A stretch of DNA of 64,000 nucleotides from Methanosarcina vacuolata Z-761 (lineage in GTDB: Archaea > Halobacteriota > Methanosarcinia > Methanosarcinales > Methanosarcinaceae). Below the pieces are notes generated by a model that was not told where the DNA came from, made no database searches, and saw nothing but the letters and a program-made list of their open reading frames with translations. Every line of letters begins with the position of its first letter. The first letter of the stretch is position 1. The stretch lies in the NCBI RefSeq assembly GCF_000969905.1, contig NZ_CP009520.1:2666001-2730000 (forward strand), read 5' to 3'. Shown here one piece after another: positions 40,596 to 56,057 of the stretch. A program made the translations under genes and the position numbers.

Positions 40596-41020
40596 AAGCT
40601 ACAGGACAAATTATAGGGATAAATTAAAGATAGCTCTTTTTAAAAATTGATAACAGTGTGATTTGTTGATGCAGACTTTTCTGGGGATATAAAATCTGAA
40701 AATATTGAGGTTGAAATTGTTCCATATCCTTTGGACTCCACTGATTTGGATGATTAAAATACGGGCGTAACTGAAACCATTGAAATTCCTGAGCGAACAT
40801 GTGAAGAGAATAAACAGTCCTATTCAGGTGAAAAAATTGCTGAATTAAGGGAGAAAAGCGTTCTAGAGAGGAGTTCCCGGTAAAGCTGAAATAAGTCCCG
40901 AGTACTCTTTGAAAGTTTCTCACTTCTTTGAAACCATAAGTTTTAAATAAATTACTAAAGTTTTACTCTAAAGCAAATTATTGCTTCCTTAATAAGTGCT
41001 TGAGGTTTCAAAATGAAGTG

Positions 41021-41175
41021 TTATAAGAGGCATTTAGATTTAGACTGCATTTAGCATACAACATAGTTGTTCAGATAGGAGGAAGGTAAGGAGTAGAACC
41101 CTTCCCCCTACCTCGGAGGTTGACTTACTCACGCAGAGAAATATGCCAGAAATCCTGCGTGAGTTTTTTACTCAG
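41021..41175 (+). ncRNA. Candidate structured small RNA with intrinsic terminator
   Basis: TAGGAGGAAGG (41076-41086) pairs with CCTTCCCCCTA (41100-41110). CCTC-GGAGG (41111-41119) is a further small helix. A perfect 10-bp stem ACTCACGCAG (41127-41136) / CTGCGTGAGT (41155-41164), followed by TTTTTT, closes the unit. A TATA-like GTGTTATAAGA lies at about 41018-41028. No open frame covers it, and the next gene is 300 bases away, so it is more like an independent RNA than a leader. I recognise no RNA family. The rest of the 40596-41481 spacer holds no supported gene. Confidence 0.5.
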
Positions 41176-41256
41176 ATGATATATATTATGCATGAAATGT
41201 ATTTAACTCTTTCTATTTTGTAGCTATGTCTATAACTCAGATCAGTTTTTATTTTA

Positions 41257-41317
41257 ATCTCAGTTTTAATTTCAGTTTAAATTTCAGTTTAAATTTCAGT
41301 TTTAATCTCAGTTTTTA
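41257..41317. repeat. Short tandem repeat, 12-13-bp unit (AATTTCAGTTTA), about 5 copies
   Basis: ATCTCAGTTTTA and AATTTCAGTTTA variants alternate between the candidate RNA and the helical-repeat gene. Confidence 0.8.
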
Positions 41318-41481: not shown

Positions 41482-42234
41482 ATGTTCTCACTGAACGAAC
41501 AAAAGGCTATTGAACTTGGAGAATCTGGAGAACGAGCAATAAGAGAACAGAATGAATATGATGCGCTCCAATATGCTGAGTACCTCCGGGAATTCGGGCA
41601 AGAGTTGCTCGAAGGAAATTTAGAGAAAGATTTAAAGCGAGTCGCGATCTCACTCCGGAATATTGGTAATAAAGCAATCCAGAAAAAGATCGAGAACGTT
41701 GCGTCCACGGCTCTTAGTGACCTTAACTCTCTTTCTGAAGCTGCACTTGACAAGGGCTTTTCCAATGCAATGTGGTCTTTTTCAAAAGCTGTACAGGAAA
41801 TAGGAAAAGGAGCGGTACAGTTCCAGATGCTTGAATCTGCAAAAATTGCACTCGATACGCTTAAAATGATAGGACTGGGTGCGGTAGAAAAGAAAATGGA
41901 AGTTGTAACCCTCTGGACGACCATGTCAATTGAGGAAATGGCTTATCTTGCAAACCGGCAGCAGCTTGAAGATTTAACCAAGGACGCAAAAGAAGCAAGA
42001 GAAGAAATTATAGAATACTCCGAAGCCTCGGGGTTTGTTACAAGGGAACAGATTGAAAAATACCCACAGCTTATCGCCCAGACCGTAAGTCAATTCTCAG
42101 AGCTTCAGAACCTTCAACCTGCAGGTTATGCGGCAAAGCCCAATGAGGAATTCACAGAAGAGGAATTCTTTGAGGAAGAGGAAGAAGGAGAGGAGCAGGA
42201 GCCTGAAACTGAGGCTGCCAAAAAGGAAATGTGA
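41482..42234 (+). CDS. Helical-repeat protein with acidic tail, paralogue of 5497-6393
   Basis: 250 residues. Three or four helical repeats carry the 'I-G-x-x-A-x-x-x-x-M/I-E-x-x-A' pattern, for example LRNIGNKAIQKKIENVASTA, VQEIGKGAVQFQMLESAKIA and LKMIGLGAVEKKMEVV. The last 35 residues are almost purely acidic (EEFTEEEFFEEEEEGEEQEP). No signal or membrane segment. The ATG at 41482 follows AAAGGGG by 7 bases. The shared repeat pattern makes it a relative of the protein at 5497-6393, with fewer repeats and an added tail. Function unknown; a cytoplasmic scaffold is possible. Confidence 0.82.
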   Translation: MFSLNEQKAIELGESGERAIREQNEYDALQYAEYLREFGQELLEGNLEKDLKRVAISLRNIGNKAIQKKIENVASTALSDLNSLSEAALDKGFSNAMWSFSKAVQEIGKGAVQFQMLESAKIALDTLKMIGLGAVEKKMEVVTLWTTMSIEEMAYLANRQQLEDLTKDAKEAREEIIEYSEASGFVTREQIEKYPQLIAQTVSQFSELQNLQPAGYAAKPNEEFTEEEFFEEEEEGEEQEPETEAAKKEM

Positions 42235-54529: not shown

Positions 54530-56057
54530 GTAACTATTCAGGTAGCCTTGTTAAGGCTACACAATTTTTCCTCGTTCCGAGGAAAAATTGGATATAAAAT
54601 GAACCATTTTCTTCCTTGATGAAACGTGAAGAGATTCTTGCTTTGTGTGCTTCAAACCCTGAAGTTATTGCTTATATTATAAGTCTTGAATCTCAAATTA
54701 AAGACCTCACTGAAAGATTGCAAGTTTTAGAATTTCGCTTAAATCAAAACAGCCGAAACAGCAGTAAACCTCCTTCTAGTGACTATATTTCCAAAGGAAA
54801 ACCTAATCCAAAAAGTCTCCGTAAACAGAGTGGCAAGAAACCTGGAGGTCAAGAAGGTCATCCAGGAACAACTCTCGAAATGGTAGATAATCCTGATTAG
54901 GTAATAGAGCATTCTTTGAACTGTTGCGAAGAATGCGGCCAGAATCTTGAGGATGTTGAAGTTGAAGCTTATGAGGTAAGACAGGTTTTTGATATTCCGC
55001 CTGTAAATCTTATTGTTACAGAACATCAAAGTCAGATTAAGATCTGTCCTTGCTGTGGAAGGTTAAATAAAGCTGAATTTCCAGAATCAGTAAATTCCCC
55101 AGTTCAATATGGTCCTAATATCGTAGCTTCAGCAATTTACTTTAAAAATCACCATTTCATTCCTTATAAAAGGATTTCTGAATTGTTTCATGATGTAATG
55201 GGGATAAAAATCAGTTCTGCTACCATTATTGAAGCAGAAAGAGAATGTTTCCAGAACCTTGAAGAATTTGAAAACGTAATTCGAGAAAAGTTACTCTCTT
55301 CTCCTGTTATCCATTGTGATGAAACTGGAATGAAAGTTCACGGAAAAAGACATTGGCTTCATGTAGCTTCTACTGACAAATACACTTGTTATTTTGCTCA
55401 TCCGAAAAGAGGATCAGAAGCTATTGATGCTATGGGAATTCTTCCAGAGTTTAAATGGGTAGCAGTTCATGATGGATGGAAACCTTACAACGGTTATAAT
55501 TGTGATCATGCTCTTTGCAATGCCCATCTCCAAAGAGAACTTATTGGAATTGAGGAGAGTTATAAACAGCAATGGGCTAAAGATATGAATGAGCTGTTAT
55601 CTGAAATGAAAAAGTATACTGATGAGTGCAAAGAGCAGGGCAAATATCTGGATTTTGAACAAGTTAAGGCATTAGAAAAAAGGTTCGATACTGTAGTCGC
55701 GAAAGGAATTGAAGAAAATCCACCTTCTCTAAATCCTGAAAGACAAGGAAAACGTGGTATGTATCCAAAAACCAAAGCAAGGAATCTGCTTGATAGGTTT
55801 ATAGAACATAAAGAAAAGATTCTGAGATTCCTGAAAGACTTGAAAGTTCCGTTTGAGAATAATCAAGCAGAAAGAGATGTCAGGATGATGAAACTACAGC
55901 AGAAAATATCAGGAACTTTCAGAACTACACGGGGAGCGGAAGCTTTCTGCAGAATTAGAGCATATATTTCCACAATAAGAAAGAATGGTTTACCTGTTTT
56001 AGAGGGTATTCTCGCGGCGCTCAAAGGAGCGCCGCTAGCTATACCCTGAATAGTTAC
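54530..56057 (+). mobile_element. IS66-family insertion sequence, single-ORF type, with 8-bp target duplication
   Basis: The ends are GTAACTATTCAGG-TAGC (54530) and its inverse ending GAATAGTTAC (56057). The 8 bases AAAATAAT flank both ends, which fits the 8-bp duplication of IS66. Length is 1528 bp. Near the left end are two strong hairpins: GTAGCCTT/AAGGCTAC and AATTTTTCCTCG/CGAGGAAAAATT. Near the right end is GCGGCGCT/AGCGCCGC. Only the large transposase gene is present; the small accessory genes of classical IS66 are absent, as in the ISBst12 type. Confidence 0.9.
54616..56049 (+). CDS. IS66-family transposase with in-frame TAG (possible pyrrolysine codon)
   Basis: 477 codons. A leucine-zipper start (ESQIKDLTERLQVLEFRLNQ) leads to the PPSSDYISKGKP and GGQEGHPG motifs. 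A zinc-finger region (CCEECGQN, CPCCGRLNKA) and the DDE core follow: HCDETGMKVHG, VAVHDGWKPY, CNAHLQREL and NNQAERDVRMMK. Codon 95 (54898-54900) is TAG, inside the stretch DNPD-x-VIEHSLNCCEECG, and the frame is otherwise intact on both sides. In Methanosarcina UAG can be read as pyrrolysine, and transposases with in-frame UAG are known there. If it is not read through, the protein stops at 94 residues. Confidence 0.88.

Follow-up and report, generated by a model that had tools for sequence, protein, structure and literature searches.

A putative small RNA gene with two hairpins, conserved in Methanosarcina and read from the minus strand

The window, a stretch of 64,000 nucleotides from the genome of Methanosarcina vacuolata Z-761, in all likelihood contains the gene of a small structured RNA that is conserved across much of Methanosarcina and that was misoriented in the preliminary description. 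Both the reality of this gene and its position on the minus strand are very probable in our view. The span first proposed for it needs to be both shifted and reversed: the RNA is predicted to run from about 41177 to about 41055 on the minus strand (positions are those of the window), with a promoter-like block extending to about 41219. Computation over the window and its relatives established the conserved structure, the strand, the conservation of the flank and the distribution described below.

A DNA search picked up matches in 22 of the 30 Methanosarcina genomes, and a covariance model (R1) a single copy in each of 23 of the 30. With this model, no copy was seen in G010, G015, G016, G017, G019, G022 or G024, some of which are incomplete, nor, under stricter filters, in any of the order's 155 other genomes; among the genomes searched, the RNA is limited to Methanosarcina. 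The model's match to the copy studied here, G000:C2:2707045-2707178 (minus strand), corresponds to 41045-41178 of the window. No covariance model of Rfam 15 matched 40950-41300 at E values up to 5. Across the whole window a single match reached the Rfam gathering score, outside the RNA region: PYLIS_5, the pyrrolysine insertion sequence of a transposase, at 54898-54997 (95.6 bits).

Read on the minus strand, the gene opens with a predicted archaeal promoter (41198-41219; AAAATAGAAAGAGTTAAATACA), the blocks of which are 87% and 97% conserved in 22 copies. Judged from its letters, TTAAATAC at 41206-41199 (about 41203) would be the TATA-like core and, by archaeal spacing from it, the RNA probably starts near 41177, directly after a conserved TAATATATAT (41179-41188; block 99% conserved in 22 copies). 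The RNA itself would be about 123 nt long (41055-41177), with the 5′ end near 41177 and the 3′ end near 41055 both predicted. Hairpin 1 (41127-41164), supported by the fold, the alignment and covariation, has its loop (41140-41152) within a conserved UUCUGGCAUAUU, which 17 of 22 copies share unchanged. The linker that follows (41114-41126) includes CAACCUCC at 41122-41115, complementary to GGAGGUUG; CAACCUCC is found in seven of the 22 copies and a complete ACCUCC in only 10. Hairpin 2 (41073-41113) comprises 13 consensus pairs, five of them with two-sided changes, and 96.9% of its cells are paired. Its loop, GUUCUACUCCUUA at 41087-41099, contains ACUCCUUACC, which in its letters is an anti-Shine-Dalgarno element and is nearly fixed, being complete in 21 of 22 copies. 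A small 3′ hairpin (ACAAC/GUUGU, 41058-41070) is predicted in the window's copy. Runs of at least five Ts lie 3′ of hairpin 2 on the minus strand in eight of 22 copies; the window's copy has a T run of two at most. The copy in G001, a 5.75-Mb genome, carries an insertion in which hairpin 1's 3′ arm recurs together with some of the linker (L020 1468-1623).

The stem letters given in the preliminary description are present, with TAGGAGGAAGG at 41076-41086 and CCTTCCCCCTA at 41100-41110 of the window forming one stem, and ACTCACGCAG at 41127-41136 pairing with CTGCGTGAGT at 41155-41164 in the other, a perfect 10-bp stem. The six Ts also lie where described, at 41164-41169, the first of them being part of the 10-bp stem. 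Read on the plus strand, the first stem contains an A-C mismatch (41080/41106), which on the minus strand is a G-U pair. For the window's copy, the minus-strand fold (123 nt) has an energy of −44.2 kcal/mol (z −4.62), equalled by none of 200 shuffles, and the plus-strand fold (129 nt) one of −34.9 kcal/mol (z −2.02), equalled by six of 200; the copy in G009 folds with a z-score of −3.93. Twenty-two copies (L001-L022) were aligned in both orientations, leaving out L023, a second fragment beside L005. The RNAalifold consensus was −28.7 kcal/mol with 21 pairs on the minus strand and −9.4 kcal/mol with 14 pairs on the plus strand.

To test covariation, a named structure of 23 pairs was applied to the minus-strand alignment, which had been built from sequence alone. 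The preliminary description had suggested compensatory changes among relatives as a check on the stems, and this test, run on the 22 copies, found two-sided changes in eight of the 23 pairs, with 93.6% of cells paired. Such changes filled 32 cells against 6.1 in shuffles, none of 500 of which reached 32, a cell count that overstates the number of events because changes are common to related sequences. Slid controls gave at most five pairs and 10 cells with two-sided changes. The further pair types were not exceptional, being matched by 61 of 500 shuffles. A structured RNA unit, as originally claimed, is therefore borne out, since it folds more stably than its shuffles, has been kept by relatives and has stems that covary.

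The gene is assigned to the minus strand because the G-U/A-C asymmetry, the consensus energies, the conservation of the flanks and the fold z-scores all point there, and it was on these four counts that the plus-strand claim failed. Departures in the 23-pair structure amount to 34 G-U cells against 10 A-C cells when read on the minus strand, counts that would swap on the plus strand. Block conservation is 87-99% in the stretch upstream on the minus strand (AAATAGAAAGAGTTAAATACATTTCATGCATAATATATATCATCT) and drops to 48-69% further upstream (22 copies), while on the opposite flank, the side for a plus-strand promoter, block conservation runs from 77% down to 25%. The stems did not pair better on the plus strand by folds, consensus energies or G-U/A-C cells. 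A plus-strand small RNA ended by an intrinsic terminator is thus highly improbable in our view. It could appeal to the 10-bp stem and the six Ts after it, to a T-run of at least five in 17 of 22 copies, and to a TATA-like TTATAAGA at 41021-41028 that, by eye, would suit a start near 41045-41055; it is opposed by A-C mismatches where the minus strand shows G-U, by its poorer consensus fold, by the poorly conserved flank on its promoter side and by a T-run of four or fewer in the other five copies. With the minus orientation, the supposed terminator stem therefore becomes the first (5′) hairpin of the RNA. The GGAGG once described as exposed is replaced by anti-Shine-Dalgarno CUCC as the exposed element of the minus strand.

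Several other readings of the locus were rejected. A leader of a downstream gene was set aside, as the only listed minus-strand ORF downstream (40624-40923) had no relative at E 1e-5 in 13 loci, and the earlier statement that no gene lies behind the RNA holds, none having been found there. The gene at 41482 is no better candidate for a leader, lying about 300 bases away on the opposite (plus) strand. Two small reading frames, one on the plus strand (26 aa by eye, from an ATG at 41143) and one on the minus strand (MSKKLT... in some species), both shift with T-run length among relatives when inspected by eye, and therefore neither was taken as a conserved peptide. Comparison of 12.2 kb around the RNA in 13 of the 23 loci showed that the trp operon and a relative of the 41482 gene (at least 68% identity) adjoin it in eight and not in five. 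The neighbours vary while the RNA is kept, and the RNA is therefore not tied to one neighbour gene. The 250-aa product of the gene at 41482-42234 matched nothing in Pfam or NCBIfam; in other genomes, several copies of weaker relatives (24-32% identity) lie close to the RNA.

We propose that the minus strand here carries an autonomous gene for a small non-coding RNA, with its own predicted TATA-type promoter. The two hairpins would expose conserved loops, and loop 2, through its anti-Shine-Dalgarno letters (ACUCCUUACC), would pair with the ribosome-binding sites of target mRNAs, blocking translation initiation. The linker (CAACCUCC) would aid that pairing in some species, and loop 1 perhaps contributes as well, being able to base-pair with AAUAUGCC around a start codon. 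We infer that the minus-strand RNA is transcribed, acts in trans and represses translation; action in trans is plausible, and on balance we think that it masks ribosome-binding sites, in the manner known from M. mazei sRNAs.

Pairing was tested on samples of 239 and 264 genes from G000 and G009, respectively, with 150 shuffles per element. Against Shine-Dalgarno regions, two of 150 shuffles were as good as the linker in G000 and none of 150 in G009; for loop 2 the preference was weak (27 and 16 of 150). Loop 1 showed no preference for start codons in these samples (39 of 150 shuffles as good in G000, 62 of 150 in G009), and the extended complement of loop 2 was not enriched in G000, where it matched 102 times and the reversed control 106 times. 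The complement of loop 1, AATATGCCAGAA, gave seven matches in G000 against none for the control. Among genomes lacking the RNA, it was absent from G010, G015, G022 and G024, present three times in G016 and once each in G017 and G019. Over seven genomes, 19 of its 20 sites outside the RNA fall in stop-to-stop frames of at least 120 codons, and several have matching contexts in more than one genome; this apparent enrichment was consequently dropped as evidence.

The partner of the conserved loops might instead be a protein or some other RNA, and not mRNA starts, making the RNA a scaffold or sponge. Loop 1 fits such a role, being identical in 17 of 22 copies yet preferring start regions no more than its shuffles do, as does the linker, where only 10 of 22 copies have the whole anti-Shine-Dalgarno. 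We nevertheless think it unlikely, as loop 2 is both anti-Shine-Dalgarno in character and nearly fixed, and the lack of a matching Rfam family leaves no known scaffold to cite.

The minus-strand RNA was compared with small RNAs of M. mazei. The best match of the G009 PylRS is PDB 2q7e, which we take to be an M. mazei entry. Because of this match, and because published primers for M. mazei sRNA154 fit its DNA, G009 was taken as M. mazei. The primers place sRNA154 at about L047 9842-10061, 3.7 kb from the minus-strand RNA (G009:C1:1645781-1645917, about L047 5980-6120) and within the same 12.2-kb stretch, at a locus with a GGTA-N6-TACC dyad that is presumably NrpR-like. This locus also has a TTG-started 20-aa frame, which fits the sORF placed at 'nct 4-66' in the available part of PMC11456600; the primers are those in the accessible text of PMC11549558. 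The distance of 3.7 kb shows the minus-strand RNA to be distinct from sRNA154, although the two are often neighbours, relatives of sRNA154 (E 1e-21 or better) lying within the same 12.2-kb stretch in six of 13 loci. The two are alike in being conserved in Methanosarcina with a stable two-loop structure and anti-RBS letters in loop 2, as far as the available portion of a review describes sRNA154. They differ in sequence and place, and neither the dyad nor a 20-aa sORF at nt 4-66 was seen in the minus-strand RNA. M. mazei sRNA162/sRNA171 is likewise conserved in Methanosarcina and masks a ribosome-binding site through a single-stranded stretch, and is described as 191 nt long with three stem loops, a 39-nt linker and two copies in M. 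mazei. The minus-strand RNA, in contrast, forms two main hairpins and occurs once in G009, and identity with sRNA162/sRNA171 was ruled out by copy number and hairpin count.

Excerpts of the literature report masking of ribosome-binding sites as the mode of sRNA162, sRNA154 and sRNA41, the last having several targets, as proposed here for the minus-strand RNA. The minus-strand RNA could even be the ortholog of sRNA41, which masks several ribosome-binding sites in the operons for ACDS (acetyl-CoA decarbonylase/synthase), although we find this doubtful. In favour, sRNA41 masks sites within polycistronic mRNAs, according to the same partial sources, and the linker alone ranks cdhE (four of 260 and two of 311 sampled genes as good) and cdhA (11 of 260 and 10 of 311) high. 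However, two-loop scores at ACDS starts, scored with cdhD of G000 left out, are ordinary, with 20 to 90 of 260 and 31 to 198 of 311 genes as good, and the excerpts describe sRNA41 by mode and targets alone, rather than by sequence or place. Literature on Methanosarcina small RNAs gave no matching description, in a search that did not extend to the 2009 sRNA paper, where the RNA may already be listed.

Returning to masking by the minus-strand RNA, the best target candidate seen is the mRNA of a 60-aa 2[4Fe-4S] ferredoxin. The gene was picked by a pattern search (Shine-Dalgarno AAGGAG plus ATATGCC) and not blind; in six genomes the pattern was matched 37 times and its reversed control 21 times, with five matches each in G000, and the same ferredoxin start region was among the matches in all six. 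Its two-loop score tops all 260 and all 311 sampled genes in two genomes, for a gene chosen after the search. Leaders were compared over the 30 genomes without G002 and G024. Of the 22 genomes that have the RNA, 18 carry AAGGAGTG together with ATATGCCA ahead of the ferredoxin gene, as do two of the six that lack it (Fisher p 0.038, ignoring kinship); the start part alone (ATATGCCA) is present in 22 of 22 and five of six. This difference may be read as a hint of co-evolution at best. In G000, the 16 letters AAAAGGAGUGUGAAUA are common to the ferredoxin leader and to the start region of a 630-aa protein (L193), where they likewise precede the gene. The ferredoxin match in G001 is probably, from its position and kind, MA0431 of M. 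acetivorans, described in the available parts of PMC3160891 and PMC5296606 as the electron acceptor of the ACDS/Cdh complex. A far-reaching extension would have loop 2 on the Shine-Dalgarno and loop 1 on the start codon of the same mRNA, antiparallel, as a two-site clamp used genus-wide with this acetate-type ferredoxin, the ACDS electron acceptor, as core target, and would join the RNA with its frequent neighbour sRNA154 in an RNA control island linking carbon and nitrogen metabolism; we regard this as quite improbable.

Few archaeal trans-acting small RNAs have known targets, the first three having been analysed in M. mazei according to the accessible part of a 2019 paper. As a single-copy, covarying candidate that occurs in most of the Methanosarcina genomes searched and has strongly conserved loops and a predicted promoter, the RNA described here lends itself well to the mapping of targets in methanogens amenable to genetics. 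Because it is linked to sRNA154, the idea of an sRNA cluster can be tested too.
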